Source of the DNA: Polaribacter litorisediminis
GTDB taxonomy: Bacteria; Bacteroidota; Bacteroidia; Flavobacteriales; Flavobacteriaceae
Length of the DNA: 64,000 nucleotides
Assembly (NCBI RefSeq): GCF_019968605.1
Contig: NZ_CP082966.1
Coordinates: 1,041,001 to 1,105,000 of the forward strand
Direction of reading: 5' to 3'
Part shown: one piece after another, positions 344 through 24,817 of the stretch
How positions within the stretch are numbered: position 1 is the stretch's first letter
Layout of the letters: each line of letters opens with the position of its first letter
Made by a program: the position numbers and the translations under genes
The notes under the pieces: generated by a model
The model's input: only the letters and a program-made list of their open reading frames with translations
Told to the model about the DNA's origin: nothing
Databases searched by the model: none

Positions 344-1642
344 ATGAGTAAAAGAATACTTTACAATCTATTAGTTGTTTTCTTTTTGTTGATAAGTTGT
401 AAGTCAGACAGACCGATAGATATTAAGAAAATAACAAGTATATCTGCTGAGTCAGCAGTAATACAAAAGGAAATAAATGAAGTGAATTTTTATTTTGAAA
501 ATTCAGGTTCTATGAACGGATATTTAAATGGAAATGATTTTTTGGAAACAATGATTCGAATCATTGGGAACTCTGAAATTGAAAACTTAAATACGTTCTT
601 TGTAAATACAGCAGCCCATAAAACAGAGAATCTTTTAGACAAAATTGAAAAGAACAAGATTGCCGTTGGTAATACTGGAAGTTCTGATCATCAGTTTATT
701 TTTAAAACCGCTATAGAAAACGCGAAGAATAATAATTTAAGTATTGTGGTTACGGACGGCATATACTCTGTAAAGGGAAAAAAACCTAGTATTGTTTCGG
801 TTAAAATTGAACAAACATTTGTAAAAGCTTTAAATGAAAATACAATAGAAACAGTAGTTCTAAAAATGGCATCAAATTTTAATGGTAATTACTATTCAGA
901 AACCTGTAATCCAGGATCTAAATCAATTGAAATTAATCAAACAAGACCGTATTACATCTTCTTATTTGGAAATAATCAAGTTATAAAAAAAGCACTCAAC
1001 GAAATTGTAATCCTTAACGATTTAAAAGGTCAAGAAGAGCAAGCAAGATTTATGATTACCAAAGATGTTAATATTAATTACACGGTTTTAACTCAAGGGG
1101 AGGAAAAACAAGGCAGTTTTAAGCAAACTAGTAAGTCTTGGGTAGTAAAAGAAATTGGTGATGCAGAAAAATTTTCTAAAAGAGGAGTTCCTCTAAAAGA
1201 TAGTTATCTTCAATTCGGGGTTGCAGTTGATTTCTCTAAAAGAGCTATTCCAGAATCTTATTTATTAAACACCTCTAATTATTCAGTAGTAAATAATACA
1301 GGATATAGCATCGAAGAAATAAAAAAAGTAAGTGATTTAGATAAAACTACTAAATCTTATAAATGGATTGATACGCAAAATAAAAAAGGGGAATTTAAAT
1401 ATACGCATATCATAGTTGTAAAAGCAAAAGAAAAACTTTACGGTGATTTAACTTTAATTCTTAATATTAACTTTCCTGAGTGGATAGGAGATACAGGCAC
1501 GAACAATGATTGCGATATTAAAAACGACACAACCACCACCTTCGCATTCGATCGGTTAATGACAGGTGTTTCAAAAGCATACAAAAAAGTAGGCAAAAGA
1601 GATGACTTCTTTAAAATAAATGTAAAAATAAAAGCAAATTAA
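344..1642 (+). CDS. VWA-like lipoprotein, first gene of the envelope-machine operon
   Basis: A 432-residue predicted lipoprotein. The N-terminus is a hydrophobic signal ending in a lipobox with Cys19. Residues 52-57 read ENSGSM, which resembles the metal-ion-dependent adhesion site DxSxS of von Willebrand A domains with Glu replacing the first Asp. A second acidic position, TDG near residue 137, fits the same fold after a beta-strand (SIVVTDG). The rest is not recognisable. As a surface or periplasmic VWA protein it could bind a ligand or organise the complex encoded downstream. It ends 1 nt before the next start codon, so it is clearly part of the operon. The VWA assignment is inferred from motifs only; the lipoprotein call is firm. 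Confidence 0.7.
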   Translation: MSKRILYNLLVVFFLLISCKSDRPIDIKKITSISAESAVIQKEINEVNFYFENSGSMNGYLNGNDFLETMIRIIGNSEIENLNTFFVNTAAHKTENLLDKIEKNKIAVGNTGSSDHQFIFKTAIENAKNNNLSIVVTDGIYSVKGKKPSIVSVKIEQTFVKALNENTIETVVLKMASNFNGNYYSETCNPGSKSIEINQTRPYYIFLFGNNQVIKKALNEIVILNDLKGQEEQARFMITKDVNINYTVLTQGEEKQGSFKQTSKSWVVKEIGDAEKFSKRGVPLKDSYLQFGVAVDFSKRAIPESYLLNTSNYSVVNNTGYSIEEIKKVSDLDKTTKSYKWIDTQNKKGEFKYTHIIVVKAKEKLYGDLTLILNINFPEWIGDTGTNNDCDIKNDTTTTFAFDRLMTGVSKAYKKVGKRDDFFKINVKIKAN

Positions 1643-1643
1643 T

Positions 1644-2060
1644 ATGAGTATAATTGCACCAGGGTATGAGTTTTTCTTTGATTGGGATACATATCAAATA
1701 TTGTTAAATGCAGTGTTTAATAATTTAGATTACAGTAAAATTGGTTGGTCAATAGTTGTGGTCAATTTAATAGCTCTTGCTACTTTTTACAAATTTTGGG
1801 ACCCTGTAAGTGCTTCGAAGTTAAAGTGGTGGCTATCAATACTAGGAATAGGGATTCTTTCTTATGTCAGTACATCAACTATATTGTACAATAATATTGA
1901 AATTATTCAGCATATAGCAACTGGATTATTACCAGATGGTGATTATTTTATTATACAAATGAGTATGATTTCGTTATTATATAGTGTAATTATTGCATTC
2001 ATTCTATCAGTTTTTCCATTTAGACTCTTCAGTACAAACAACAATAAAAATCCATTTTAA
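1644..2060 (+). CDS. Small integral membrane protein of the operon
   Basis: A 138-residue protein with about three predicted membrane spans (roughly residues 33-50, 60-80 and 103-127) and no recognisable enzymatic motif. The first 30 residues are aromatic-rich and probably lie outside the bilayer. The gene starts 1 nt after the VWA-like gene and ends 3 nt before the tubulin-like gene, which implies translational coupling. A plausible role is to anchor a cytoplasmic partner, such as the tubulin-like protein, at the inner membrane; that is inference from position. I do not recognise the family. Confidence 0.7.
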   Translation: MSIIAPGYEFFFDWDTYQILLNAVFNNLDYSKIGWSIVVVNLIALATFYKFWDPVSASKLKWWLSILGIGILSYVSTSTILYNNIEIIQHIATGLLPDGDYFIIQMSMISLLYSVIIAFILSVFPFRLFSTNNNKNPF

Positions 2061-2063
2061 ATT

Positions 2064-3533
2064 ATGATAAATAAATTATACGTTTTCGGAATCGGAGGTA
2101 CTGGTTCTAGAGTCATAAAAGCCTTAACGATGCTTTTAGCATCTGGTATTAAATTGGAAAATAATTTTGATATTGTTGTTCCTATTATTATTGACCCCGA
2201 CACAGCGAATGGTGATTTAAATAGAACAGCTGATATTTTAATGAAGTATCAAAATATAGTCAATAAATCAGGTGAAAATAATGCCCTTTTTGGTACAAAA
2301 ATAAAGACCTTAAATCAATTGACAAATGAAAATGTACCAAACCTCAGCAATAATTTTAAATTTAGTATTGATGGTAGTGGTCAAGAGTTTGGCGAGTCTA
2401 TAGATTATAATGGTTTAGATGCTGAAAACAAATCATTGATAGATTTGTTATTTAGTAAAGCAAATATTAAAGCTGATATGACAGTTGGTTTTAAAGGAAA
2501 CCCAAATATTGGAAGCGTAGTCTTAAATAAAATTGTGGATTCTCAAGAATACCATGAATTCTCTAATTCTTTTAATGAAGGGGATGCAATTTTTATAATA
2601 AGCTCAATTTTTGGAGGTACAGGTGCTTCTGGATTTCCGTTATTATTAAAAAACTTAAGAACTAATGATGCTGGCAGACTCAATTCAGATTTAATTAGTA
2701 AAGCAAATATTGGGGCAATTTCTTATTTACCTTATTTTAAAGTATCTGATAACAATAATAATGAAAAAGAAATTGATTCGGCAACATTTTTCGGTAAAGC
2801 GAAAGCAGCGTTGAGTTATTATGAACATGCAATTTTTAAGAGCAATGCTATTAATACTTTTTATCATATTGGTGATAATGCAAATAATAATATGAAATAT
2901 GCTGAAGGCAAAGCAGATCAAAAAAATGACGCTCATTTTGTTGAATTGGCAGGTGCGCTATCAATTATAGATTTTGTAAAAAATATACCTTTATCAAATA
3001 ATAATAATGATACCGAGATAAAAGAATTTGGTATAGAAAATGGTATAGGTAAATTAAAATTTGATAGTCTAGGGCAAGTTGCAAAAGATAATTTAAGAGT
3101 TCCTTTATCTAAACTTTATTTACTCAGTAATTTTATTAAAATATCTATGGATAATTTATTAAAATCAACTGGTTATTATAATGGTGATAAAGGTATTAGT
3201 AAAGATTTTTATAATAGCGATTTTTATAAATCTGAATTTACTCCTTTCCTAAATTATTTTAAAGAATGGATTGATGAAATGAAAAAAAATGACATTTCTT
3301 TTATGCCTTTTCATGATAATCAAGATCACGATACTTTATTTGATTTTATAATTGGTAATGAAGTTGATAAAGGTGGTATTTTCTCAAAAAATAAAGCAAC
3401 TGGTAAAATCTTAATTGAAGAAGCTAATAAGTTAATTAAAACTGGCATATTGGATAACGAGAAGCAAGAAGCAAGATTTATTAAAATCTTTGATACAATA
3501 TTAGGAAACCAAATCATAAAAATTCTAAATTAA
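2064..3533 (+). CDS. Tubulin/FtsZ-like GTPase-fold protein
   Basis: A 489-residue protein. The N-terminus has a beta-strand followed by GIGGTGSR (residues 9-16), a Rossmann-type nucleotide loop of the tubulin/FtsZ class. Around residues 182-188 it has FGGTGASG, corresponding to the tubulin signature GGTGSG that binds GTP phosphates. This pattern matches the 'tubulin-like' proteins scattered in bacterial accessory loci (Pfam Tubulin_2 type) rather than cell-division FtsZ, which is shorter and ends in a conserved peptide. No signal peptide, so it should be cytoplasmic. It sits between a small membrane protein and an actin-fold ATPase. Whether it polymerises cannot be told from sequence. The fold is well supported; the function is unknown. 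Confidence 0.75.
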   Translation: MINKLYVFGIGGTGSRVIKALTMLLASGIKLENNFDIVVPIIIDPDTANGDLNRTADILMKYQNIVNKSGENNALFGTKIKTLNQLTNENVPNLSNNFKFSIDGSGQEFGESIDYNGLDAENKSLIDLLFSKANIKADMTVGFKGNPNIGSVVLNKIVDSQEYHEFSNSFNEGDAIFIISSIFGGTGASGFPLLLKNLRTNDAGRLNSDLISKANIGAISYLPYFKVSDNNNNEKEIDSATFFGKAKAALSYYEHAIFKSNAINTFYHIGDNANNNMKYAEGKADQKNDAHFVELAGALSIIDFVKNIPLSNNNNDTEIKEFGIENGIGKLKFDSLGQVAKDNLRVPLSKLYLLSNFIKISMDNLLKSTGYYNGDKGISKDFYNSDFYKSEFTPFLNYFKEWIDEMKKNDISFMPFHDNQDHDTLFDFIIGNEVDKGGIFSKNKATGKILIEEANKLIKTGILDNEKQEARFIKIFDTILGNQIIKILN

Positions 3534-3538
3534 ATAGC

Positions 3539-6500
3539 ATGAGTAAGAAAGTTTTTAGAATACATAATCAAGGTGCATTAACAAACGATTGGTTTTCGTC
3601 TACAGAAATTAATGACGCACTAATAAGCAGTATAAACACAGATGGTGGTAACGGTAAGAAATTACCAACCTCAATACCTAGCCCCTTTGCTCGTATAGAT
3701 TTAGTAAGAACTGCTTTTGATGTTGTTGGTGGCTCAGGTCAACTAGATGGTATTGAAATTCATGGTAATGCAATGGCGTCTGATAATCATAAATTAATTT
3801 CTGATGCCTTAGATATCGGACAAATCCTATTCAATTATAATAAGTTTAAAGACAACTTAAGTTTAGTAGCTTGGGATAAAAGAATAAGTTTAGATAAACT
3901 ATTAAACGGAAATGAAAAACAAAGACATTTAGGAAAAACCTTAGATCTTTTTTTAAAGCAGGACAGTGTTCAGTATAATTTTGAGTTGCTAGATAAACTT
4001 TACATTATTAAATATAATCATGAAATTATAGGGGGTACCTCACCAAGAACTTTGTTTTTTGCGGCGCCTGATGCAAAAGCAATTGATATTAAATTTGGGA
4101 ATGACATTATGCTAGACGATGGGTTACACCCACTATATAAGCGAGATAAAGAGTATATAAAATACTTATATGCAATGTCGAAATCTCCAGATTTTAATAA
4201 TTTTTTCCCTGAATTTAATAAGTATTTAATAGCTACTTTTAGAAAAATAGCACTAATTGATCAACAGTTTTATAATGAGTTAATGACATTAAATACTGGA
4301 ACACATTTAAGTTCTTTAAAAAATGTAACATTCAATGGTAATGCAGGTCATCCTCTTGAAGTTATTTCAGGTTTTGCACTAAAACAATATGTTTTAGATC
4401 CTAAGCTTATTGAAAACAATAGTGATTTAGTCATCAAAACAGTTAAAATTAAAGAAGGCTTAAAACCACTGGTGTTGCCATTAAAACCATTAATTCATAA
4501 ATATATATATACATTTGATACTTGGAATCCTGAAACGATTGTTCTTCCATCAGATAAAAGGCCATTGAATGAAAGAACTCTTCCAGAACAAGGAGATTTG
4601 TATCCGTATCTCACTATGAATGACTTCTTAACAGATACAATTGTTAAATTACCATACGATATTGATAAAATTAGATTTTTTACATTAGGGGAAAACAAAT
4701 ATCTATTACCTTTAACAGATAGGTTTTTTGACTATTTTAAGGTAGAAGAATTAGTAGAGGGTAACTTTTTAGAGTATCATGCAAGAGCAGGTGATAGTTT
4801 GGAAGTAATATTAAACATACCCATCAAAAAAGGTTTTATTCAATATTCTAAAATTTATTACCCTAAAAAACATAGCGACCCTGCAAAGGGTTCTATAGTA
4901 GAAAAATCTTTTGCTTTTTCAATTTTTCCTTTTGTAAATATTGATCAAGTAAATATGAATTACGCTTTAGGTCTTGCTGATGTATTGCCTGAAAAAGGAA
5001 TTAATTTAGATGTCGAGGTAATAAATACAAATTTAGAAAATTCACATTTAAGTAAAATACAAAAGCAAAGATCAAAAAGCCCAACAATAACAACACAAAC
5101 ATTAGTTGATCAACAATTTGATTTAATAAAAATTCAAGTAGGGAATGTAAATAATTACCTTATTCCAAATTGGCCTCAAAATAGTGCTTTTGGTGGTGAT
5201 AATTATGAATTTACTATTGATTTTGGTACAACAAACTCTCATATTGAATATAAAATTGAAGGACAAGGAAAAGAAAAAGCATTTGATATTACAACAGAGG
5301 ATGCACAAATCGCTTTTTTAATGCCAGATGATACTCCAAAAAGGTCTGACTTTTTTAGGATGATAGAAGAAGGTGAAACTCACCTTATGCAAGAGGTAAT
5401 TGGTAAAACATTTGGGGAAAATCAACTAAGAAAAGCTCCTTTTAGAACTTGTCTAGTGCAAAATCAAGATGTGGATTATCAACAATCTACTTCCATTTTT
5501 ACACATGTAAATGCAGGTTTTGATTATGAGAAAACTCCAATTAGAGGGTATTTAAAAGCTTTTACTGATTTAAAATGGGCAAAAAATGAAACGAATAACG
5601 ATACAAGGTTATCTCATTACATTGAGGAATTATTGCTTTTATGTAAGAACAAGGTATTAATCAATAATGGTAATTTATCAAACACAAAAATAAAGTGGTT
5701 CTACCCAGTAAGTATGACGTCTAATCACTTGAATAGATTACGTCAAAAATGGGCAAATAATTACAAACTTGTTTTTGGTGAAAATGCGAATCCTACTAAT
5801 TTAATAAATTTCCCTGAGAGTATCGCTCCTTTCTATTATTATAAGGCTAAAGGAGGTGTCAAAGCAATGGCAAAACCTTCAGTTTCTGTAGATATTGGTG
5901 GAGGAACAACAGATATAATGATTTATGCAGATGGGAGCCCAAAGTTAATTTCTTCATTCAGGTTTGCTGGAAACTCTATTTTTGGAGATGCTTTTAATGG
6001 GAACATTAATAACAATGGTTTTGTTCAAAAGTATTATAATGAGTTTAAGCAAATCCTTGCTAGTAATTCATTAAACTCTGAATTAAAGATTTTAGAAAAA
6101 TTATATACTGATAACGAATCATCTCAAGACATTGTAAATTTCTTTTTCTCCTTAAAAAACAATAAAAATGTTCAAGATAAAAAGTTAAATAACCTCGATT
6201 TTTCAGAAAAACTTTCTAAAAATGATGACTTTAAACTAGTTTTCTTATTGTTTTATGGCTCACTAGTATATCATATTGCAGAATTAATGAAAGTGAAAGG
6301 GTTTGAATCTCCTAGAAATATAATTTTTAGTGGAACAGGTTCAAAAACATTACAAATTATAGATCAGGACACAAATAAATATGCTACTACAAAAAAATTA
6401 TTTCAAGCAATTTTCAACAATGTCTTAGGTGAAGAAAATTCTAATATTACTATAAAATCGGATCAAAATCCTAAAGAAGTTACATGTAAAGGTGGTTTTT

Positions 6501-6913
6501 ATATAGATAAAGAACTAGAAGAATTAGATCATAAAAAGTTGGTTGAAGTTAATATAGGAAACTATAATAAGTTAAACGTACAAAGTATAAGTAAAGTTAC
6601 TAACGATACTATAAAATACAAAGACCTTACTAATAGTTATTTAGATGGTGTGCTCAAAAATGTAGAGAACTTCTATAAATTGTTCAGTAAGTTAACTGTA
6701 GAATTAAATTTTAAAGACATTTTTGGGGTTTCAAACAATTCGATAAAAGTTTTTGAGAAAATTAAGTCTTTAGATTTATTAGATTATCAACTACAGGGTT
6801 TAGCACATTTAAAATCAGATACTGTAGATGAAGATCCCTTGGGTGAAACCTTATTTTTCTTTCCAATTATTGGTAAATTAAATGAACTAGCAAATGAAGT
6901 CCTAGAAGAATAA
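3539..6913 (+). CDS. Large actin/Hsp70-fold ATPase (SrfB-like organisation)
   Basis: A 1124-residue cytoplasmic protein. The second half contains the actin/Hsp70/sugar-kinase ATPase signatures: phosphate-1 IDFGTTNS near residue 559, phosphate-2 VDIGGGTTD near 782, and an adenosine-type motif IIFSGTGSK near 928. The first 540 residues are a long N-terminal region with no motif that I recognise. The size and the position of the ATPase core recall the 'virulence factor SrfB' family, but I cannot confirm membership. It lies 5 nt after the tubulin-like gene and 11 nt before a membrane coiled-coil gene. An actin-fold ATPase encoded beside a tubulin-fold GTPase is rare and suggests a regulated cytoplasmic switch or filament docked on the membrane complex. 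The ATPase fold is well supported; the role is inferred. Confidence 0.75.
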   Translation: MSKKVFRIHNQGALTNDWFSSTEINDALISSINTDGGNGKKLPTSIPSPFARIDLVRTAFDVVGGSGQLDGIEIHGNAMASDNHKLISDALDIGQILFNYNKFKDNLSLVAWDKRISLDKLLNGNEKQRHLGKTLDLFLKQDSVQYNFELLDKLYIIKYNHEIIGGTSPRTLFFAAPDAKAIDIKFGNDIMLDDGLHPLYKRDKEYIKYLYAMSKSPDFNNFFPEFNKYLIATFRKIALIDQQFYNELMTLNTGTHLSSLKNVTFNGNAGHPLEVISGFALKQYVLDPKLIENNSDLVIKTVKIKEGLKPLVLPLKPLIHKYIYTFDTWNPETIVLPSDKRPLNERTLPEQGDLYPYLTMNDFLTDTIVKLPYDIDKIRFFTLGENKYLLPLTDRFFDYFKVEELVEGNFLEYHARAGDSLEVILNIPIKKGFIQYSKIYYPKKHSDPAKGSIVEKSFAFSIFPFVNIDQVNMNYALGLADVLPEKGINLDVEVINTNLENSHLSKIQKQRSKSPTITTQTLVDQQFDLIKIQVGNVNNYLIPNWPQNSAFGGDNYEFTIDFGTTNSHIEYKIEGQGKEKAFDITTEDAQIAFLMPDDTPKRSDFFRMIEEGETHLMQEVIGKTFGENQLRKAPFRTCLVQNQDVDYQQSTSIFTHVNAGFDYEKTPIRGYLKAFTDLKWAKNETNNDTRLSHYIEELLLLCKNKVLINNGNLSNTKIKWFYPVSMTSNHLNRLRQKWANNYKLVFGENANPTNLINFPESIAPFYYYKAKGGVKAMAKPSVSVDIGGGTTDIMIYADGSPKLISSFRFAGNSIFGDAFNGNINNNGFVQKYYNEFKQILASNSLNSELKILEKLYTDNESSQDIVNFFFSLKNNKNVQDKKLNNLDFSEKLSKNDDFKLVFLLFYGSLVYHIAELMKVKGFESPRNIIFSGTGSKTLQIIDQDTNKYATTKKLFQAIFNNVLGEENSNITIKSDQNPKEVTCKGGFYIDKELEELDHKKLVEVNIGNYNKLNVQSISKVTNDTIKYKDLTNSYLDGVLKNVENFYKLFSKLTVELNFKDIFGVSNNSIKVFEKIKSLDLLDYQLQGLAHLKSDTVDEDPLGETLFFFPIIGKLNELANEVLEE

Positions 6914-6924
6914 AATAAACTGCT

Positions 6925-8193
6925 ATGAAAAGAAAAATAATATTCGTCATTTTAGTTTTCCTATTTGTAAATTATAATTATTCGCAAAATAAAAAAGACA
7001 GTTTAAAAGCTTATAATGAAATTAAAAATTGGGCTGTAGCTAAATTAACAATAGCTTATATCGAAGATCTTAGAACTTGGGATAATAATACCAAACTTAA
7101 ACCTAGTAATAGTGAACAGAAAAAAGAATGGGATTCCTATAATAAAATAAAAAATAAATATTCCAAATATTCTGATAGTGTAAACTTAGATGAATTAAGT
7201 AATCAGTTATCAATAGGCTGGAAGAAAACAAGAGATAGTGTTTTCAAAAGATATAAATTAGAGTTGATTGATAGCACGGTTAGCCTTCATTTTAAGAACA
7301 TAGCCTTTGTTCCTAAAATGAGTAAAATAGATGAAATACCTAAACAGCCAAGGAAACGTAAAGAAGCTATTCAACTCATCAATGAAGAATACCAAAAATT
7401 CATTACAACATATAATACAACCACTAAAAATGTAAATGAAAACAGTTCAAATAATATTCAAGATAGAAATCCAAGAAGACTAAGTAAGGCAAAAGAGTTT
7501 TCAACCTTATTTATAGTTTTATTAGGCTTTTCTTTTCTATTTAATATTTTTTTAATATTTAAATTAATATCTAGTAAAAAAGCATTGTTAAAAACAAAAA
7601 ATGGTAAAAAATATTGGAAAGATCAAAATGAAGTATCGAAAAAGGAAATAGCCTCTTTAAATGGTAAGATCGAAACAATTACAAATAAAGATTTAAGGGA
7701 AATAAAATCATTTCAGACTACAAAAGTAGTTGATCAATTAAGTAATGTAAATATATCTAGACCAATCGTTCAATCTAGAAAAGATGAGATTAAAAATGAT
7801 ACAAAAAACAAGGATACTGAACCTATTGAAGATGAAAAAGCAATAACGGTTAATCTTGATATTCAAAAACCGAAGTCAACCTTAATATATTTACCAGCTC
7901 CTTTTGAAGAGAAAAGATTTGCCTCAGAAGATGCAAGCGAAGGAATAAAACAAACATCACTATACCAAGCAGAGCTTACTGAAGATAGCAATGAAGTCTA
8001 CTTTACATTAATGGAAACGGTAGATTTATCTAGAGCTCTAAATTCTCCAAATATATATTTAGAAACAGCTTGTGACTATGAAAATACTTATACTACAAAT
8101 GCCAAGACTATAGAGGTAGTCGAAAAAGGTATCATACGTTTAGAAGGTAAGGATTGGGTAGTGAAAAAGAAAATAAGAATAAAATTTAATTAA
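6925..8193 (+). CDS. Membrane-anchored coiled-coil protein with C-terminal globular domain
   Basis: A 422-residue protein with an N-terminal signal or anchor segment (residues 1-21), a charged and probably periplasmic region (about 22-165), a strong transmembrane span (about 190-212), a Lys/Glu-rich segment likely to form a coiled coil (about 220-260), a linker, and a C-terminal beta-rich domain (about 305-422) ending in WVVKKKIRIKF. I have seen similar C-terminal domains in cytoplasmic Bacteroidetes proteins of unknown function but cannot name the family. Its topology would link the periplasm to the cytoplasmic NTPases. It starts 11 nt after the actin-like gene and ends 3 nt before the MotA-like gene. 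It may be the coupling subunit between the motor and the NTPases; this is inference. Confidence 0.65.
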   Translation: MKRKIIFVILVFLFVNYNYSQNKKDSLKAYNEIKNWAVAKLTIAYIEDLRTWDNNTKLKPSNSEQKKEWDSYNKIKNKYSKYSDSVNLDELSNQLSIGWKKTRDSVFKRYKLELIDSTVSLHFKNIAFVPKMSKIDEIPKQPRKRKEAIQLINEEYQKFITTYNTTTKNVNENSSNNIQDRNPRRLSKAKEFSTLFIVLLGFSFLFNIFLIFKLISSKKALLKTKNGKKYWKDQNEVSKKEIASLNGKIETITNKDLREIKSFQTTKVVDQLSNVNISRPIVQSRKDEIKNDTKNKDTEPIEDEKAITVNLDIQKPKSTLIYLPAPFEEKRFASEDASEGIKQTSLYQAELTEDSNEVYFTLMETVDLSRALNSPNIYLETACDYENTYTTNAKTIEVVEKGIIRLEGKDWVVKKKIRIKFN

Positions 8194-8196
8194 ACT

Positions 8197-9819
8197 ATGA
8201 TAGCTTACATAGAGATTGGAATAATTGTGGCAATAATTGCTTTTCAGGTTAACCTCGCAAGAAAATTATGGTACAAGATTATTGAATATCGTGCAATTTT
8301 TGATTTTGAGACATTACCTATTATTTCACAAAAACGAGTTCTAAAGAGTTTTTATGCTTCGGGTAATGTAGAAGATATGCTTTCTTATGAAGAAGAAGAT
8401 GGTGAAGGTGATGTTAGTATAACCTATCTTGATTACAAGAGAAATAGTAAGGTTTTAGGTACTATTGTTAAATATATAAATGTTTATTTAATAAAAAACA
8501 AAGGGGCATCTATAGATTTTCACTTAATCAAAGACATTGTTGACAAACACACAGAAACAATAGAAAATCAAATTGAAAATAGAATTCCTGCACCATTGTA
8601 TTTAGGTTTGGCTGCAACTATGATAGGAATCATAGCAGGCTTATTTTCAGTGTCTTTTGATAGCGGAAGTAATGCATTAGATTCAATTCAACCTTTAATT
8701 AATGGTGTAAAGTGGGCAATGTCTGCCAGTGTAATCGGACTTATTATAACTACGTACTTTTCAATTAAGGTATATAAAGATGCACAAACAGAGGCCGATG
8801 AAGAAAAAAGTGAATTTTTATCGAAACTACAATCTGAGTTAATGCCTAAAATGGCAACAGGTAAACTACCTGAAGTAGCTATTTTATCGGGTAAATTAGA
8901 TGTTTTTGCTAGAAATACATCCGCATCAATTAATCAGCTTGATACAATTGTTCGTGCTACATCAAATACTATAAAAAGAGAGCATCAATTAATAAGTGAT
9001 ATAAAAAAATTAGATGTCTCAAGAATTACCACATCTAATGTCAAAGTATTTAATCAGTTAGATACGATGATGGATTCTTTTTCTAATTTTGCAAACTACT
9101 ACAACCAGCTCAATAATTCTATGAGTAGTACGTCAGAATTAGTAAAGAGATTACAGCATTTTACAGAAACAACAGAGAATATTAATACAGTACTGGAAAG
9201 CATAAAAAATAATATTGAGGCAAGTAATGCAGCGACAAATTTTTTTAATACACACATCGAGTCATTTTCTAAATATGGGGATGCAGTAAACGAAGCAGTT
9301 GTTCAAACTGAATCAAAAATGGCGAATGCTATAAACGATTTAGGAAAATTGTCACTTGAGCAATTTAACGCTTTTAATGAAGCAATAGCTGGCTTTGATT
9401 CAAAACTAACAACAGCTTTTACCCATTCAATTGAGGTGTTTACCAAAGCAATGGATGAACAAGTTTTAAGAACAGAGCAAGCATTTGAAAAGAGCCGTCC
9501 AAAGTTTGAAAAACTAGATCATTTAGATCAGTTAGAAAAATTGAATAGTATTGATAAAAATTTAGAAAATTTACAAAAAGATTTATCAATTGTTTTTAAA
9601 AATAGCAGCCAAGATATTATCGCTGCAATCGAAAAAATTAATAGTAACAAAGAATGGCCGATTTCAGCACCTTCAACGGTTAGCGTGCCTGATGTTTTAA
9701 AGCCTATAAAAAAAACAAAATTAGAATTGGTTTTGATTGTATTAAAAATAGGAGCTTATTTAACAATACTTAGTTACGGTATTCAATCTATGTTGATTTT
9801 TTTTGATATCATACAGTAA
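8197..9819 (+). CDS. MotA/ExbB/ZorA-like proton-channel subunit with long coiled-coil tail
   Basis: A 540-residue membrane protein. After an N-terminal span (about 3-20) come two core spans typical of MotA/TolQ/ExbB (about 131-152 and 173-194), with small-residue packing such as LGLAATMIGIIAGLF and the AMSASVIGLIITTYFS segment that lines the channel in this family. A long cytoplasmic tail (about 200-500) is rich in Asn/Lys/Glu helices and probably forms a coiled coil. An additional span appears at the extreme C-terminus (about 516-535). The long tail is reminiscent of ZorA of the Zorya defence system; the terminal membrane helix is a departure from it as I know it. The stop overlaps the start of the first MotB-like gene by one base (TAATG). 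The channel assignment is strong; the defence role is inferred. Confidence 0.8.
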   Translation: MIAYIEIGIIVAIIAFQVNLARKLWYKIIEYRAIFDFETLPIISQKRVLKSFYASGNVEDMLSYEEEDGEGDVSITYLDYKRNSKVLGTIVKYINVYLIKNKGASIDFHLIKDIVDKHTETIENQIENRIPAPLYLGLAATMIGIIAGLFSVSFDSGSNALDSIQPLINGVKWAMSASVIGLIITTYFSIKVYKDAQTEADEEKSEFLSKLQSELMPKMATGKLPEVAILSGKLDVFARNTSASINQLDTIVRATSNTIKREHQLISDIKKLDVSRITTSNVKVFNQLDTMMDSFSNFANYYNQLNNSMSSTSELVKRLQHFTETTENINTVLESIKNNIEASNAATNFFNTHIESFSKYGDAVNEAVVQTESKMANAINDLGKLSLEQFNAFNEAIAGFDSKLTTAFTHSIEVFTKAMDEQVLRTEQAFEKSRPKFEKLDHLDQLEKLNSIDKNLENLQKDLSIVFKNSSQDIIAAIEKINSNKEWPISAPSTVSVPDVLKPIKKTKLELVLIVLKIGAYLTILSYGIQSMLIFFDIIQ

Positions 9820-10559
9820 TGAAAAAATCGAACTTCTTTTGGGTTGGTTTTGCAGACTTAATGTCTAGTTTGTTTTTTATTATTTTAATTCTATTCATTG
9901 TAACAGTTTTAATATTAGAAAATAAAATGAAGGAAAATATTGAAATTATTGCAAAGAGTGCAAAAGTTATTTCAGATAATAAAAAGATGATTGCTGAAAA
10001 TGATAAGTTAATAGCTAAGTTGAAGATTAAAGAAAAAGAATTAAACGTTGAAAACGACAGATTAAATAAATTATTAAAAATTGAAGAACAATTTAAACCT
10101 TTAGAAGATAATCCCAATTTTGTGTATTTAAACGATTGCAAAAAATTTGTAGCTAGTAAATTAATCGGAAAAGAAATATTTGAGCCAACAAAAACTGTTA
10201 TAAAATCGGAATTTCAAGAGATCACTTTAAAGGCTGGTAAATCATTAGAATCTTTCTTGGCTAAATTAAAAAAAGAAAACCCAAGCTTATCTTATCTTTT
10301 AGTAATTGAAGGTAATATGGCTAATAAATACGATAGATCAATAGATAAAGATAATCTTTGGGGGTATCAAAAAAGTTACCTCCGTGCATTAGCTGTTTAT
10401 CAGTTATGGCAAAGTAACTCAATTGATTTTCGAAAATATAATGTAGAAGTAATGATTTGTGGCAGCGGATTTAACGGTATTTGTAGAGATAGTGTTGAGG
10501 AAAATAATAAACGGTTTTCAATTCAAATATTACCCAAAACTGAAAACACGAATATCTAA
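9819..10559 (+). CDS. MotB/ZorB-like OmpA-domain protein 1
   Basis: A 246-residue protein with a single N-terminal membrane helix starting FFWVGFADLMSSLFF. Asp13 sits where MotB/TolR/ExbD proteins carry the proton-accepting aspartate. A Lys/Glu coiled coil follows (about 40-85), then an OmpA-like peptidoglycan-binding domain (about 120-240) with IEGNM, a conserved SYLRALAVY helix and a final NNKRFSIQI strand. It is translationally coupled to the MotA-like gene. By homology it would form the rotor/stator core with that protein and grip peptidoglycan when activated. It is longer than its neighbour at 10568, mainly in the coiled coil. Confidence 0.8.
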   Translation: MKKSNFFWVGFADLMSSLFFIILILFIVTVLILENKMKENIEIIAKSAKVISDNKKMIAENDKLIAKLKIKEKELNVENDRLNKLLKIEEQFKPLEDNPNFVYLNDCKKFVASKLIGKEIFEPTKTVIKSEFQEITLKAGKSLESFLAKLKKENPSLSYLLVIEGNMANKYDRSIDKDNLWGYQKSYLRALAVYQLWQSNSIDFRKYNVEVMICGSGFNGICRDSVEENNKRFSIQILPKTENTNI

Positions 10560-10567
10560 AATAAAGA

Positions 10568-11236
10568 ATGAAAAAGTCAGGTTTTTTTTGGGTAAGTTAT
10601 GCTGATTTAATGACGAGTCTTTTCTTTATAATGTTGGTATTATACGTGATTTCATTTGCGATACTACAAAGTAAACAAAGTACACTCGAGGCACAAGCAA
10701 ATCAGCTTAAAGAAATTAAAAATGTTCAAAAGGCCATAGAAAGTTTAGACACTACTTACTATCATTTCGACACTGAAAATAAAAGGTACAAATTAAATAT
10801 TGATGTTCGTTTCAAATCGAACAGTTCTAATATATTAGACATTCCAAATAATACTAGAAGAAGTCTTGGTAAAGCTGGGAAAAACTTATACGATAAAGTA
10901 AAAAGCATCATTGACACAAGTAAAACAATTGACTATTTATTAATCATTGAAGGAAACGCTCAAAGATCTAACAATAATTGGCTTAGAAATCCAAATATGG
11001 GATATGATTTAAGTTATAAAAGGGCTTTGTCTTTATTTAATTACTGGAAAAAAATAGGTGCAGATTTCAATAGCCTAGGGAGTCAATGTGAAGTAATCTT
11101 GGCGGGTAGTGGGTATTTTAGTCAATCCAGAGATGAAGAAAATGAAAATAATAACAGACGTTTTACCATTCAAGTTACTTCAAAAGTTGGTAAATTTTTA
11201 AACGAAATAGAAAAGCCTAAAAAAAAAGGAAATTAA
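10568..11236 (+). CDS. MotB/ZorB-like OmpA-domain protein 2
   Basis: A 222-residue paralogue of the previous gene, starting 8 nt after it. The N-terminal helix contains SYADLMTSLFF with Asp13 as the putative proton-binding residue. A short linker leads to an OmpA-like domain with IIEGNA, LSYKRALSL and a terminal NNNRRFTIQV strand containing the Asn and Arg typical of peptidoglycan-binding OmpA domains. Stator units normally contain two identical MotB-type subunits; two different genes in one operon suggest a heterodimer or two alternative stators. Sequence divergence between the two copies is considerable, so the duplication is old. Confidence 0.8.
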   Translation: MKKSGFFWVSYADLMTSLFFIMLVLYVISFAILQSKQSTLEAQANQLKEIKNVQKAIESLDTTYYHFDTENKRYKLNIDVRFKSNSSNILDIPNNTRRSLGKAGKNLYDKVKSIIDTSKTIDYLLIIEGNAQRSNNNWLRNPNMGYDLSYKRALSLFNYWKKIGADFNSLGSQCEVILAGSGYFSQSRDEENENNNRRFTIQVTSKVGKFLNEIEKPKKKGN

Positions 11237-11278
11237 TACCAGAAAAAAATCCTTCCTAGACAAAATATTTGATTAAGT

Positions 11279-12019
11279 ATGAGATATAAATTATTAATTG
11301 CAATACCTATAATAGTATTTGCTTTCTTTTTAAACTCCTGTAATAGTTGTTCTAGATCAGGAAGAGCAAAAATAATTGCAATGGCTAAAAAAGAAGCAAA
11401 TAAAAAAAATACAATTCCTGAACCAAATACCATTATTAAAGACATAGAGCCTAAAATTGTTAAAATTGAGGATATTGTAACTCCAAAAGAGAAAACAATT
11501 ATTAAAAAAGAACTTATCATAAATAAAATTCCACCTGCCGTGGGTAATTTAATACAAGTAGAGGGGCTCGTATTAAAAGAAGTATCAGAATTAAACATTA
11601 AACTAAATACGAGTGGTTCTCAAGTAGAACAAATTGTAGCGATGCAAAAGCATATTTTTAAAAACTGGCACTACATTTATGATCCAATTACAGGTAAAGA
11701 TACTTGGAGGTCAGCTGAAGCAACACTTTCATTAAAATATAAAGACCAATATTCAGGTGATTGTGATGATTTTGCAATTTTATTAGCGTCAGTAGCAAGA
11801 CAAATAGGGCTTAGATCAAGAATGGTTGGAGGCTTTGATGGTGATTATGGCCACGCTTTTGCTGAATTTTTAGTTCCCGAAAATGAAATGAAAAACGAAC
11901 TACTGTATGGTGCAGACTATAGAACTGATGCTTCTGGTAAATGGATAAGCCTTGATTGGTTCAAGGGTAATGACCACGATAGGTTTACTCATAATATTAA
12001 AATATTTGAAGATATATAA
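11279..12019 (+). CDS. Transglutaminase-like cysteine-protease-fold lipoprotein
   Basis: A 246-residue protein with a signal peptide ending in a lipobox (FLNSC, Cys15). The C-terminal half has a transglutaminase/papain-like core: YSGDCDDFA with Cys162, followed by a hydrophobic helix, then GDYGHAFAEF with His192, and a later Asp near SLDW. This is the Cys-His-Asp arrangement of bacterial transglutaminase-like hydrolases, which often act as peptidases or amidases. It would sit in the periplasm or on the outer membrane. It might process cell-wall peptides or an envelope component of the machine. It follows the MotB-like gene by 42 nt, the largest gap in the operon, so an internal start signal is possible. 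Confidence 0.75.
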   Translation: MRYKLLIAIPIIVFAFFLNSCNSCSRSGRAKIIAMAKKEANKKNTIPEPNTIIKDIEPKIVKIEDIVTPKEKTIIKKELIINKIPPAVGNLIQVEGLVLKEVSELNIKLNTSGSQVEQIVAMQKHIFKNWHYIYDPITGKDTWRSAEATLSLKYKDQYSGDCDDFAILLASVARQIGLRSRMVGGFDGDYGHAFAEFLVPENEMKNELLYGADYRTDASGKWISLDWFKGNDHDRFTHNIKIFEDI

Positions 12020-12035
12020 CCTCAAACCTTTTAGA

Positions 12036-12848
12036 ATGTCTGCAAAAAAAACCATGTCTTTTTTAATTATACTCTTGCTATTCATAGACTGTAGATCAAA
12101 ATCAGCACAAGCAAAATTACGAAGTAAAAATGCAGAGAAAAATAGTAGCATTACAACAAATAAAAAGAAAATATTATTGTATCCAACCTCTACTACAAAT
12201 CAGGTTATTACCCATAGTTATCTGACGTTGTCGTACAGCGAAAAAGATGAACAGCCAGAATGGGTATTCTATAAAATTTCAAATAAAAATTATAATAAAC
12301 AAGTAAAAAGGACTAACGATTATAGAGAAGATCCTTTTGTGAAAACAGAATCAGCTTCACCAAAAGATTATAAAGGCAGTGGTTATGATATGGGGCATTT
12401 AGCCCCAGCTCACGCAATGGCACACAATTATAACGCTATGAGTGAAAGTTTTTATTTAAGTAATATTTCTCCTCAAAAGGCTTCATTCAATCGAGGTATC
12501 TGGCGATCACTAGAAAGTAAAGTAGAATATTGGTCAAGTTTTAGAGATTCTATCTATGTCGTTACAGGGCCAATTTTAGACAACCCAATTGATCAAATAG
12601 GTGATAATAAAGTAAATGTGCCTAGAGCTTTTTATAAAACGCTAGTTAGTTTTAAAGATGACAAAGCAATGGGTATTGCATTCATCTTACCAAATGAAAA
12701 GTCTAGCAAGTCTATTTACACTTACGCGACATCTATTGATGAAGTAGAGAGAATTACAAATATTGATTTTTATTATAATTTAGATAGTTTAGTTCAGGAA
12801 AAAGTCGAAGCCAATAGAAATATCAAAAATTGGCTGTCAGTTAAATAA
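12036..12848 (+). CDS. DNA/RNA non-specific endonuclease (NUC1/NucA family), predicted lipoprotein
   Basis: A 270-residue protein from the ATG at 12036; an upstream in-frame ATG at 11952 would overlap the previous gene by 68 nt and place a non-signal sequence first, so I reject it. The N-terminus is a hydrophobic export signal ending in FIDC, a permissive lipobox. The nuclease core has DMGHLAPA, with His121 as the general base (the usual motif is DRGH, so Arg is replaced by Met), and SNISPQ...FNRGIW...LE, which supplies the metal-binding Asn. The family hydrolyses DNA and RNA with little specificity and is normally exported. In the operon context it could degrade DNA entering through the periplasm. 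It lies 16 nt after the transglutaminase-like gene. Confidence 0.85.
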   Translation: MSAKKTMSFLIILLLFIDCRSKSAQAKLRSKNAEKNSSITTNKKKILLYPTSTTNQVITHSYLTLSYSEKDEQPEWVFYKISNKNYNKQVKRTNDYREDPFVKTESASPKDYKGSGYDMGHLAPAHAMAHNYNAMSESFYLSNISPQKASFNRGIWRSLESKVEYWSSFRDSIYVVTGPILDNPIDQIGDNKVNVPRAFYKTLVSFKDDKAMGIAFILPNEKSSKSIYTYATSIDEVERITNIDFYYNLDSLVQEKVEANRNIKNWLSVK

Positions 12849-12861
12849 TAATTCCAATTGG

Positions 12862-13491
12862 ATGAACGAGCAATTTTTTTCAAATGTTATATTTATACTA
12901 ATAATAGGGATACTCTTATTCTTTATTGTTAAGTTTAAATTATCAGAGCGATCAAAAAAAAGAGCTAGAAAAAAACGTTTTGAAAGAGGTTTAAAGCTAG
13001 AAACAGCAGCAGAAGACTTTTTAAGAAAAAAGGGATTTAATATCCTATCTAGTCAAGAAATATATTTTCATAATTATCTAGTTAATGGTCATAAAAAGCA
13101 GAATAAATTAATAGTAGATTATATTACTGAAAAATCAGGAAAAAAATATATAATTGAAGTAAAATCAGGAAAAAAAGCAATTTCTTTAGATGATAAAAAC
13201 TCAAGAAGACAGCTTTTAGAATACGATTTAGTTATTGAAAACGATGGAGTGATCTTGTTAGACATGGAAAACGAAAACCTACAATTTGTGAATTTTCAGT
13301 CTAAAGAAGAACAACAAGAATATAAAATTAGGGAGATTATTATTCTAGTAGCTATTATTGGTATTGTCATTCCTTTTTGGAAAGTAAAAGGTCTTATTGC
13401 AGTAATCCTAATTATAATTTGGAAATTTCCCGTAAAAGCAAAAAAGGTTTTAAAGACATTTTATACCTTTAAATTTAGAAAAAACAAGTAA
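12862..13491 (+). CDS. Membrane-anchored PD-(D/E)XK nuclease-like protein
   Basis: A 209-residue protein. A membrane helix (about 7-26) is followed by a basic stretch, then a restriction-endonuclease-like fold: a helix with EDFLRKKGF, an NG turn, VDY with Asp86, and IIEVKSGKK with Glu99 and Lys101. This D-X12-EVK spacing is the catalytic signature of the PD-(D/E)XK superfamily, here closest in feel to YraN/UPF0102 or Mrr-like domains. A downstream RRQLLEY helix also fits. One or two further hydrophobic helices (about 152-182) precede a basic C-terminus. The nuclease domain should face the cytoplasm. It starts 13 nt after the NUC1-type gene and is the last gene of the operon. A second nuclease in another compartment suggests nucleic acid is the target of this system. 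Confidence 0.75.
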   Translation: MNEQFFSNVIFILIIGILLFFIVKFKLSERSKKRARKKRFERGLKLETAAEDFLRKKGFNILSSQEIYFHNYLVNGHKKQNKLIVDYITEKSGKKYIIEVKSGKKAISLDDKNSRRQLLEYDLVIENDGVILLDMENENLQFVNFQSKEEQQEYKIREIIILVAIIGIVIPFWKVKGLIAVILIIIWKFPVKAKKVLKTFYTFKFRKNK

Positions 13492-13499
13492 AACACCCA

Positions 13500-13658
13500 A
13501 CAATAAATGATAAAAAACTAACGAAATCTATTGATAATAAAATCCAAACCGAACAATAAGCTCTATCCAAATACCAACAACTAAAAGCAGGTTTACTGCA
13601 AGATTTGTTAACTGGTAAGGTTGAGGTAAAAGCAGATGAAGAAATTTTAAAAAAGTAA
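13500..13658 (+). pseudogene. hsdS: C-terminal remnant of type I restriction specificity subunit (hsdS)
   Basis: Read in frame from 13500, this stretch encodes the typical HsdS C-terminus: a helix KIQTEQ, an in-frame TAA at 13557-13559, then ALSKYQQLKAGLLQDLLTGK and a natural TAA at 13656-13658. The motif LKxGLLQDLLTGK is diagnostic of HsdS tails. The stop most simply arose from AAA to TAA. No upstream HsdS sequence is present; the envelope-machine operon ends at 13491, directly against it. This suggests the operon replaced most of a type I restriction-modification locus. Confidence 0.8.
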
Positions 13659-13662
13659 CGAT

Positions 13663-13923
13663 ATGAAAACAACAAATAACAAAGCCTACGACTTTATGGG
13701 TAAACTAGCGCTAGCACTAAAAAGTCAAGACATACAGATTACATTCGACGCCTTAAAGGTAATTTTGAAAGAAAAAGGAATGCGTTATTCAGAAGATAGC
13801 AACTTAGGTATTGGGCAATCCGTTTCTGCGGCTTACAAAGCATGGGCAAAAATTGATATAGTAGTGCATCATGCCATTGCAGATAGTTTTACATCAAGAG
13901 ATGGCAGCCATGCATGGGCATAA
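13663..13923 (+). CDS. Small conserved-looking protein next to the hsdS remnant
   Basis: An 86-residue soluble protein starting 4 nt after the hsdS remnant, a spacing that implies it was once co-transcribed with hsdS. It is mainly helical with one central motif, GIGQSVSAAYKAW, and ends DGSHAWA. There is no signal peptide or membrane segment. I do not recognise the family; the position suggests an accessory of the former type I restriction locus, now left without its partners. No neighbouring hsdM or hsdR is present in this window. Confidence 0.6.
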   Translation: MKTTNNKAYDFMGKLALALKSQDIQITFDALKVILKEKGMRYSEDSNLGIGQSVSAAYKAWAKIDIVVHHAIADSFTSRDGSHAWA

Positions 13924-14051
13924 ATGTTAGATTGTTTTAACTTTTATTCTTAGATATTTTAATTTAAATGAAAGTCATAAGTTTTGAAAAATTTATATAA
14001 TTTACCGTTTAAAAGTACTTTAGAATGTATAATTGATTAAATTTAGTATTT

Positions 14052-14602
14052 ATGAAAAAGATTATTTTGCTCTTGATATTCAGCGTTTTCTTTATAAATT
14101 GTAATTCAGATAGAGTGTATGATAAAAAAGGAAATGAAATTATAGATACCTTTAATAATGTTCCTGTTTATCTGCATCAAGGGAAAAATACTAGACATAA
14201 AGCTAGTGACGGATATAATTACGGTTTAGAATGGCAATGTGTAGAGTTTGTAAAAAGGTATTATTATGACCATCTAAATCATAAAATGCCAAATACTTTT
14301 GGGCATGCAAAAAACTTTTATATTAGAGGTTTAAAAGACGGACAAAAAAATGCAGCAAGAAATCTTACTCAATATTCTAACAAAAGTAAATCTCAACCAA
14401 GAGTAATGATCTAGTAATAATGGATGGGCATACTTTTAATAAATATGGTCATGTGGCGATTGTATCTAAAGTTAGTGACAATGAAATTGAAATTGTTCAG
14501 CAAAATTTGGGTAGAATGTCTAGAGCAACCTTTAAGTTGATTCACAAAAATGGAGTTTGGGAAATTGAAAATCATTTACTGTTAGGTTGGTTAAGAAAGT
14601 AA
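14052..14602 (+). pseudogene. CHAP-domain amidase/peptidase lipoprotein, frameshifted
   Basis: Two adjacent reading frames (14052-14414 and 14420-14602) form one CHAP-domain protein. The first has a lipoprotein signal (FFINC) and the catalytic Cys region WQCVEFVKRYYYD. The second carries the His region GHVAIVSKV and IEIVQQN, as in CHAP amidases. Inserting one A near 14402-14405 (GTAATGATC to GTAAATGATC) joins them as PRV-NDLVIMDGH, the expected strand before the His motif. The enzyme would cleave peptidoglycan or glutathionylspermidine-type amides. As sequenced the Cys and His halves are separated, so it is inactive unless the deletion is a sequencing error. Confidence 0.8.
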
Positions 14603-14776
14603 GTATTTATCCAAACTTTATAAAACTTGTAAATAGCTGTTTTTCTCTACTTTTTCAAGATTTTTAAATTCAGCGGAAAAATTAAATTGATTTTACTACA
14701 TTTATAAACATTTTAAAAAGAAAAAATAATAACAATTATAGGATTGTTATGCTTTATTAAAAGGAATTAACTGAAT

Positions 14777-23228: not shown

Positions 23229-24512
23229 TCAGCAAGCCCTAAATAATTTTGAATAATCTTGTGGTAACTCAGCATCAATTTCTCTTAAATACTTTTCTAA
23301 AGCACTCATGGATTTATGACCTGTAATCAGCATTAAATTGCTTTTCGCTTCGTAAGGAGAAGCTTTTTCTCTCAGTTTTCTGTATAGCTTCGAGATAAAA
23401 GTATGTCTAAAGCTATAAATTCCATAATCCTCATTTAATTTAAAATGGTCTTTTACAACGCTTCTAAACCTTTTAGAAAAATGATCTCTTCTATTCGTCT
23501 CGTTTGCATGCCAGAAAGCTCCAATTTTGTCTGGAGTAAATAAAAAGGATTCTTTATCTAACATCGATAAGTCAGGTAACTCATCAAATAAAATACTAGG
23601 AATAATCTTTGTTTTTAAAGCGCTATTCTTTGCTTTAAACTGAACAGTTTTGGTTTCTAAATTAATGTCTTTAACTCTTAATCTACAAACCTCAATAGGC
23701 CTAATAAAACTATAGGAAACGAACTTTATGAATAGTAATAAAAGTTGATCTTGTTTTTCTAAATATTCAAATATATTTTGTTGTTCTTTTAATGTGTACA
23801 CCTTATTTCTTTCTGTTTTGGATTTTAAAACAGGAATCGATTGAATATAGTTTTCAGCAACCAATTCATTATTTTTTAATACTTGGAAGATACTTCCTAA
23901 CTCTGTTCTGTAATTGTTACGATTTCTTGCACTTGTTTTCAGAACAATTCCGTTAAAATAATCTAATAAGTCTTTTCTAGAAATTTCTCCTATGTTTTTC
24001 TTTGTTGGATGTGTTTCTTCCATCCATGAAATGAATAGTTTTACCTTTCTTCTATAATCTTTTATGGTTGCAGTGCTTACTGCCTTTTCTTTTAAGCGTA
24101 ATGCAAAGTCAAAAGCTTTTACAAAAGACATTTCTTCTTGATTTTTATTCCCAGTATTTTGTTCTTTTATAGGTCTCGTTTTTTTGGTGCTTTCTCTAGC
24201 TTTCATAGTTGATTCACCCTTTATGAGCTCATTTTTCAATAGAGAAGTCATTGTCTTTTCATTGATGGCCTCCTTAATAGCAATCTTTATGGCATCGTTT
24301 ATTGTTGATACCATTTCTTCTTTTTTCGACGTTTCTTTAATCTTTTTTTCAGGAATAGGAGTTTCAAATTCCTTATTCAATTCTGTGTTCTCTATAAAAG
24401 GATTAAAGCCTTGTTTTAATAAAAGTAACAGTTTCTTTCTGTAAGATGACAAGAGACTCAACCTAGCTTCCTTGGTTTTGTAATGGTTTACTTTTCCATA
24501 TACATTTGCCAT
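23229..24512 (-). CDS. Tyrosine recombinase (phage-type integrase) of the island
   Basis: A 427-residue reading frame from the first usable ATG. A Lys-rich linker (about 45-130) leads to a SAM-like core-binding domain (about 135-240) and a tyrosine-recombinase catalytic domain: Arg in FIRPIEVCRLR, YSFRHTF (HxxR box with Tyr in place of the first His, common in Bacteroidetes integrases), TGHKS and the nucleophile Tyr in LEKYLREID. The N-terminal arm-binding domain lies upstream in the same frame but is cut off by a TAG (see next entry). It sits beside tRNA-Met and is presumably the enzyme that inserted this island there. Confidence 0.85.
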   Translation of the reverse strand: MANVYGKVNHYKTKEARLSLLSSYRKKLLLLLKQGFNPFIENTELNKEFETPIPEKKIKETSKKEEMVSTINDAIKIAIKEAINEKTMTSLLKNELIKGESTMKARESTKKTRPIKEQNTGNKNQEEMSFVKAFDFALRLKEKAVSTATIKDYRRKVKLFISWMEETHPTKKNIGEISRKDLLDYFNGIVLKTSARNRNNYRTELGSIFQVLKNNELVAENYIQSIPVLKSKTERNKVYTLKEQQNIFEYLEKQDQLLLLFIKFVSYSFIRPIEVCRLRVKDINLETKTVQFKAKNSALKTKIIPSILFDELPDLSMLDKESFLFTPDKIGAFWHANETNRRDHFSKRFRSVVKDHFKLNEDYGIYSFRHTFISKLYRKLREKASPYEAKSNLMLITGHKSMSALEKYLREIDAELPQDYSKLFRAC

Positions 24513-24692: not shown

Positions 24693-24697
24693 AAAAA

Positions 24698-24721: not shown

Positions 24722-24743
24722 GTTTTATAATGATTTAAAATAG

Positions 24744-24817
24744 TAGCGAGAACGGGATTTGAACCCGTGACCTCAGGGTTATGAATCCTGCGCTCTAACC
24801 AACTGAGCTACCTCGCC
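24744..24817 (-). tRNA. tRNA-Met (CAT anticodon)
   Basis: A full cloverleaf can be drawn on the minus strand: acceptor GGCGAGG with TCTCGCT, D stem GCTC/GAGC, anticodon loop TTCATAA with anticodon CAT, T arm ACGGG-TTCAAAT-CCCGT, discriminator A; CCA is not encoded. The anticodon stem lacks the three G-C pairs of initiator tRNA, so this is elongator Met or, less likely, the lysidine-modified Ile(CAT) species. Its 3' end faces the integrase, the usual geometry for a tRNA attachment site. Confidence 0.92.

Follow-up and report, generated by a model that had tools for sequence, protein, structure and literature searches.

An operon of tubulin-like, actin-like and motor genes with exchangeable exported enzymes in Polaribacter litorisediminis: a possible mobile envelope-defence machine

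Gene content of the operon

The window analysed here comprises 64,000 nucleotides of Polaribacter litorisediminis (assembly GCF_019968605.1, contig NZ_CP082966.1, positions 1,041,001-1,105,000, forward strand), in which eleven intact and closely packed open reading frames (ORFs), g1 to g11, occupy positions 344-13491 of the plus strand, as an earlier note on this DNA had described. The types represented by g1 to g4 form a core that recurs as a unit in other genomes, mostly together with a motor pair resembling ZorA and ZorB of the Zorya system, and about half of these units are followed by interchangeable exported enzymes. The genes of the operon are:

344..1642, plus strand: g1, vWA-like lipoprotein with an invariant Cys19 and a degenerate metal motif, ExSxS
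1644..2060, plus strand: g2, small membrane protein with about three hydrophobic segments
2064..3533, plus strand: g3, tubulin-superfamily GTPase with conserved loops GIGGTGSR and FGGTGASG
3539..6913, plus strand: g4, 1124-aa protein with an actin/MreB-fold ATPase at residues 554-998
6925..8193, plus strand: g5, signal-peptide-like start and one hydrophobic segment (194-212), then a Lys/Glu-rich, putatively cytoplasmic side (signal peptide and topology by eye)
8197..9819, plus strand: g6, long-tailed MotA/ZorA-like channel protein; among solved channel proteins, nearest to ZorA (8vvi, 6.8e-7)
9819..10559, plus strand: g7, MotB/ZorB-like, paralogue of g8
10568..11236, plus strand: g8, MotB/ZorB-like, with Asp13 and an OmpA-like periplasmic domain; nearest solved structure ZorB (8vvn, 7.9e-6)
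11279..12019, plus strand: g9, transglutaminase-like (cysteine-protease fold) lipoprotein in a swappable protease slot
12036..12848, plus strand: g10, NUC1 (Endonuclease_NS) lipoprotein in a swappable nuclease slot (lipobox by eye)
12862..13491, plus strand: g11, membrane-anchored PD-(D/E)XK nuclease

Family searches bore out the parts list of the earlier note (tubulin, actin, motor, lipoprotein enzymes and nucleases). In Pfam, the transglutaminase core of g9 and the NUC1 domain of g10 scored above the cut-offs, and the matches of g3 to Tubulin_2/Tubulin, of g4 to an FtsA-like family and of g8 to the MotB plug were below them, weak and consistent; PADLOC assigned g6 to ZorA, g7 and g8 to ZorB and g11 to a Cas4-like nuclease.

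Conservation and distribution of the core

A tubulin search of genome contigs identified four Polaribacter loci, which were compared with the window and 19 further fetched loci (24 loci in total, denoted L, of which L044 is cut by a contig end), while three diverged genomes (genomes being denoted G) were handled separately. The vWA-like protein was present in all 24 loci, with E52 and S54 of the ExSxS motif in 24 and S56 in 23; the vWA assignment is of moderate strength, and a Foldseek search with g1 gave no match at E <= 0.001. The small membrane protein was present in 23 loci and the tubulin in all 24, broken by an internal stop in L047. The g3 protein carries both FtsZ-type nucleotide loops, T1 and T4 (names that we partly presume and partly take from the FtsZl1 paper discussed below). 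The actin was found in the fetched DNA of 22 loci, split into two ORFs in L004; the exceptions are L047 and L044, where a cut start was seen in the genome-wide profile search. With its phosphate and adenosine motifs, g4 belongs to the actin superfamily, and the folds and motifs of g3 and g4 suggest that both may be cytomotive. A protein resembling the fast-evolving g5 was present in 21 loci, some of the matches being weak. Separately, L036 encodes an additional membrane protein of 585 aa (13714-15471), placed after MotA and before two MotB genes or the reverse, with a DxTxST vWA-like motif by eye and no Pfam match.

The tubulin profile matched 11 of 397 genomes of the family and 13 of 395 of the phylum, the genome of the window being counted in both. 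At E <= 0.001 the actin profile matched far more genomes (382/397 and 342/395, respectively), and among the matches listed, full-length ones in the family sample came only from the same 11 tubulin-bearing genomes. Co-occurrence of the gene set beyond this genome, on which the earlier note had staked its interpretation, was thus found. Twelve of the 13 tubulin-bearing phylum genomes had the actin (eight full-length, one cut by a contig end in G482 and three diverged and partial, in ORFs of 1167-1302 aa); in G768, whose tubulin is broken, the actin profile search did not find it. The remaining actin matches, among those listed, covered about 35-80 residues around a DxGGG motif in ORFs mostly of 400-500 aa, which we read as probable FtsA. 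In a protein search for tubulin relatives, in which the best 7996 candidates were scored and 120 matches listed, one listed relative was named as an Oceanospirillaceae metagenome-assembled genome, and relatives may therefore reach beyond the phylum.

The motor pair

MotA- and MotB-type genes were detected together in 17 of the 24 loci. The earlier note's comparison of this pair with the Zorya motor was upheld both by PADLOC (ZorA 1e-10, ZorB 1.6e-13) and by the solved structures nearest to it, although the scores lie below the curated NCBIfam cut-offs (ZorA_4, 19.9 bits against 500; ZorB1, 29.7 against 400), indicating a related motor that does not count as a member by those cut-offs. The view of the motor as a constant part was not supported, since it went undetected in seven loci, among them L044 with its contig end. 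Four of the 17 motor-bearing loci (the window, L005, L007 and L036) have a second MotB, and a C-terminal hydrophobic segment of g6 was found in the clade of the window. Asp13, the ion-carrying residue of the transmembrane helix of the B subunit, is present in 20 of 21 MotB-like sequences, the exception apparently being an ORF of L047 without its N-terminus.

Peptidoglycan-binding residues reported for ZorB, in ZorB I numbering, are H186, T187, R203, R254 and R259 (PMC11890865). We aligned g8 with 8vvn and matched columns to residue numbers ourselves: g8 retains NRR and the Arg of LSxxRA, and has EGNAQ in place of EGHTD.

The count of motors excludes a weak MotA match in L040 (3e-4, 271 aa). 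In L039 (12733-13554), L040 (12738-13553) and L041 (12762-13583), all without detected MotA/MotB, there is a coiled-coil-like protein of about 272 aa with an N-terminal hydrophobic segment, which may stand in for the motor (coordinates follow the operon, whose strand is the reverse complement of the loci as stored).

Exchange of the exported enzymes

Protease and nuclease folds swap in fixed slots, a pattern that any account of the operon must explain. A protease-like exported lipoprotein, of one of three folds, follows MotB or takes its place in 12 of the 24 loci: transglutaminase-like in eight (the window, L004-L007 and L032-L034), trypsin-like in L035 (Trypsin_2, 5.8e-22) and retropepsin-like in L037 (gag-asp_proteas, 1.5e-14), L043 and L047, the last two recognised by a model built from the loci. 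A nuclease, again of one of three folds, follows or adjoins the operon in 13 loci: NUC1 in the window, L006 and L007; DNase I-like in L004, L005, L032, L033 and L035 and, inverted, in L039 (4.6 kb away), L040 and L041; and SNase in L037 and, inverted, in L042 (Pfam confirmed those of L004, L037 and L042). The claim of two nucleases as a fixed part stood for the window, where both are present, and was not supported beyond it: in other loci the g10 slot can hold either of two further, unrelated nuclease families, and g11, confined to the window among the 24 loci and missing from the 23 others, was rejected as a core part.

Leaving out the window, nucleases were found near 12 of 23 operons, against two of 33 flanking regions (Fisher p 1.3e-4, with regions of unequal size and flanks from the same genomes) and none of 20 distant control regions. 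The transglutaminase-like and retropepsin-like proteins share a CSRSG or QSGR run after the lipid-anchor Cys, which occurs in 6 of 57 lipobox proteins in 23 operon loci and in 0 of 77 elsewhere; this count is a description and not a test, because the pattern was chosen after the sequences had been read.

Such pairs bear on two explanations other than the destruction of incoming DNA. In abortive or contact-dependent killing, a signal would make the filaments and motor open the inner membrane and let the exported protease and nuclease enter the cytoplasm of the own cell (altruistic death) or of a neighbour. Protease and nuclease pairs fit this course of events; peptidases and NTP-driven assemblies recur in the conflict systems of a 2020 survey (PMC7159879), and Zorya lowers the fitness of infected cells in one study (PMC11890865). 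However, neither an immunity gene nor an apparatus for secretion or contact was recognised in g1 to g11, and lipoproteins would need to cross the inner membrane inwards, so that we regard killing as distinctly unlikely. The same enzyme pairs might instead digest external DNA and protein for nutrition, with motor-driven import, in line with the scavenging of polymers by marine flavobacteria; this seems very improbable, as g1 to g11 include no recognisable gene for a receptor, a transporter or the uptake of nucleotides, and two cytoskeletal NTPases would have no evident use.

Island and mobility

Three further features of the window concern its setting:

13491..13658, plus strand: C-terminal remnant of hsdS (type I restriction specificity subunit), interrupted by a stop (by eye, from a motif that we presume to be diagnostic)
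23229..24512, minus strand: tyrosine integrase of the island (PHROG integrase, 2.3e-27)
24743..24817, minus strand: tRNA-Met, the right border of the island

The hsdS remnant and the integrative island had both been named in the earlier note and were both found, the island by its integrase lying beside tRNA-Met. The 3.35 kb to the right of the tRNA were partly matched, not always in one piece, in all 30 same-genus genomes searched, and in the eight of the genus for which DNA left of the tRNA was fetched, continuous homology ends at 24681-24743 of the window. Two of these eight carry an integrase-like stretch and two (one shared) another short match further left. A related integrase is present in L004 and L032, and L004, L006 and L032 have a tRNA-Met upstream of the operon, which we take from its sequence to be of the initiator type; a repeat of the tRNA 3' end, as expected of an att site, was not seen in the 11 loci scanned.

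Across 19 genomes, tubulin identity shows no correlation with rpoB identity (rho 0.10). Between G233 and G482, which belong to different families, identity is 78.8% for tubulin and 71.0% for rpoB, while G036 and G005 are 92.9% identical in rpoB and 35.1% in tubulin. These data also bear on a reading as a non-defence apparatus for membrane remodelling, vesicles or surface export, with the exported enzymes as cargo. Many membrane parts are present in the operon, and operons of an FtsZ-like protein with vWA and OmpA were described in 2010 (PMC2875224). On the other hand, the operon is patchy (11/397) and island-borne here, its tubulin is at odds with rpoB, its enzymes swap and some of its neighbours are restriction genes; because such patchiness, mobility and swapping are unlike housekeeping envelope genes, this explanation is weakened and we consider it unlikely.

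To the left of the window and upstream of the island, about nine paralogous ORFs containing MIKFFR(Y/K/H)IR lie at 1361-10752 of L002 (genome positions 1022361-1031752), those at 2506-3258 and 3371-4123 being listed with identical sequence. The right half of the window holds two very large ORFs, 48356-52762 (1468 aa) and 53985-59162 (1725 aa), each followed by a 319-aa ORF.

Neighbouring genes, regulators and diverged relatives

Downstream of the operon, L032 has an HEC-06/Orf5-family gene and a type I methyltransferase, L034 a gene of the GmrSD type and L035 again a type I methyltransferase. A histidine kinase/response regulator pair is found upstream on the same strand in seven of 23 loci (L005, L007, L033, L035, L040, L041 and L039, the last with only the regulator in the fetched piece), and L036 has a divergent pair. 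A related regulator was seen in none of the 20 control regions and in two of the 33 flanking regions. Homologous regulators are also present in genomes without the operon, and in 20 such places (L089-L108) Hsp70-like, vWA-like, kinase and restriction genes follow, several places leading into ordinary genes. This suggests a shared regulated slot behind a conserved regulator. The tally of PADLOC families behind the regulators (183 families, 139 proteins) was not accepted as proof, because one protein matches many families.

In these 20 places, from several Flavobacteriaceae, the regulator has a strongly conserved C-terminus and precedes varied conflict-like cassettes, one kind of them TerB-like by eye; some of the cassettes include a gene for an exported nuclease of the DNase I-like or SNase type. 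A second histidine kinase/response regulator pair of G005, with a regulator 89% identical, lies about 7 kb from the first and upstream of the operon (L057, 3401-5731).

Of the three diverged genomes, G569 carries TerD (1.4e-70) and OmpA genes behind the core, with no motor found there; OmpA was also seen in G666, and in G689 a MotA-like gene together with one that is clearly ZorB-like (ZorB3, 1.8e-27). In an IMG/VR contig (L168, 815-11439), genes for the vWA-like protein, tubulin and actin are neighbours of a DNA methyltransferase and a phage tail-fibre gene, and ORFs of suitable length occupy the places of g2 and g5. This core may or may not belong to the virus, and a TerL search of the contig gave none.

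Proposed function

The operon most resembles a defence system if co-occurrence, enzyme swapping, mobility, the Zorya-near motor, the restriction neighbours, TerD in G569 and the core beside phage tail genes are counted together. We tentatively propose, as a possibility short of probable, a mobile and modular machine attacking foreign DNA that crosses the cell envelope. The analysis establishes which genes are present, their folds and conserved active-site motifs, their co-occurrence and the swapping of enzymes; the mechanism that follows is a prediction. The OmpA/MotB and vWA parts would detect when the outer membrane or the cell wall is breached, and ion flow or motor movement would be relayed via the tail of g6 and via g5 to the nucleotide-binding tubulin-like and actin-like proteins, which would assemble under the breach. 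Assembly might release the exported protease, which would free or activate the exported nuclease, and this would cut DNA arriving in the periplasm. The sensing step is modelled on Zorya, with the nuclease placed across the membrane, away from any DNA belonging to the cell; a periplasmic nuclease would spare the chromosome, and no immunity protein would therefore be needed. The enzymes are predicted to be periplasmic from their lipoboxes, the acidic signal that we assume to mark surface export not being seen in them by eye.

Several observations weigh against such a defence role. The periplasmic location itself depends on the lipobox reading, and a nuclease may also be exported for nutrition. 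The models used to recognise nucleases derive from these very loci, which favours them over controls, so that the enrichment is supportive and not proof; related exported nucleases also follow the regulator in five of the 20 places without the operon and are thus not operon-specific. The motor was undetected in six uncut loci (L039, L040, L041, L043, L049 and L050, besides the cut L044), where diverged copies could escape the profiles. Restriction genes were recognised beside only four of 24 loci (L032, L034, L035 and the window), a lower bound from ten neighbours scanned by name. The PADLOC flank tally (103 families in 114 flanking proteins against 23 in 124 controls, from at most three proteins per side of the window and of 22 loci, L044 excepted) counts families rather than proteins, owes part of its size to two methyltransferases and was likewise rejected as proof. 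Moreover, G464/G552/G765 and G288/G120 group in both the tubulin and the rpoB trees, and inheritance is mixed, some of it vertical, because these groups agree. Finally, none of 50,697 phage records matched, and three plasmid records did so at 29-34% identity, one a Prevotella record of 1.77 Mb whose match extends over 90% at 34%. The overall interpretation of the earlier note is, in sum, partly supported.

A bolder version, which we hold to be rather unlikely, is a separate mobile immunity class, in which NTPases from opposite cytoskeletal lineages, tubulin and actin, tied to a proton-motive motor, would form a trans-envelope trigger for an exported protease-to-nuclease cascade destroying periplasmic DNA before entry, both enzymes being exchanged like cartridges. 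If the defence reading is right, the cytoskeleton would control the cutting of foreign DNA outside the cytoplasm, with tubulin, actin and a flagellar-type motor united in one immune device, and this would give a testable role to FtsZ-like/vWA operons, which have been predictions since 2010.

Comparison with known systems

Zorya shares with the operon a MotA/MotB-type pair, being its nearest relative by profile and solved structure, a long tail on the A protein and changing nuclease partners. It differs in that the motor of the window scores far under the NCBIfam cut-offs and is undetected in 7/24 loci, that the nucleases here would be exported, judging by the lipobox, whereas those of Zorya are cytoplasmic, and that a tubulin and actin core is present. 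None of g1 to g11 matched ZorC, ZorD or ZorE in PADLOC, whose library presumably contains models of all three. Filing the operon as Zorya was rejected on these absences and on the low scores. One study shows peptidoglycan binding by ZorB in vitro and proposes that ZorAB brings a nuclease to the site of infection (PMC11890865).

The Ter systems (TerD, vWA and kinases) resemble it through G569, where TerD genes follow the tubulin-actin core, but no TerD was found by Pfam among g1 to g10, the other loci not having been searched for it; ter genes are described elsewhere as implicated in phage inhibition (PMC8123226). A 2025 study proposes vWA proteins as motor-driven force transducers, and the words tubulin and FtsZ are absent from its text (PMC12204202).

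In the GTPase-centred systems of Kaur et al. 2020 (PMC7159879), tubulin homologues with vWA, and HSP70 in related variants, have a predicted conflict role and the VMAP proteins of related systems exchange peptidases, rarely transglutaminase-like ones. Their tubulin theme belongs to Firmicutes and Actinobacteria and involves FNIII proteins and TRAFAC GTPases, and the word MotA is absent from that text (PMC7159879). Here, by contrast, the operon has lipoprotein enzymes and a motor of the MotAB type, and a GTPase of that sort was not recognised; DO-GTPase, GAP1, GASH and FNIII were not seen in Pfam scans made without those authors' own profiles. Among the papers listed in a literature search that left most subscription papers outside, we found no description of a tubulin-actin-motor set with swapping exported enzymes.

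The FtsZ-like/vWA/OmpA membrane-remodelling system predicted by Makarova and Koonin in 2010 likewise combines an FtsZ/tubulin-superfamily protein (FtsZl1) with vWA and OmpA-type neighbours in a patchy distribution with horizontal transfer, and Bacteroides caccae is among the species in the authors' superfamily alignment (PMC2875224). Most FtsZl1 proteins have a coiled coil and a helical domain (Huta_2051, 1051 aa), their operons often include a P-loop GTPase, and MotA, ExbB, nuclease and Hsp70 are words absent from that text (PMC2875224). By its length of 489 aa, about half that of Huta_2051 and equal in close relatives, g3 appears to lack the extended coiled-coil and helical C-terminal domain, and no P-loop GTPase family was found in Pfam (g1-g10) or NCBIfam (g1-g9 and g11); an actin-fold partner, a motor and exported enzymes are present instead. 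The vWA and OmpA-type neighbours are there, as g1 (moderately vWA-like) and the MotB/OmpA-like g7 and g8. We therefore call the operon a variant of a known but unproven kind of system.

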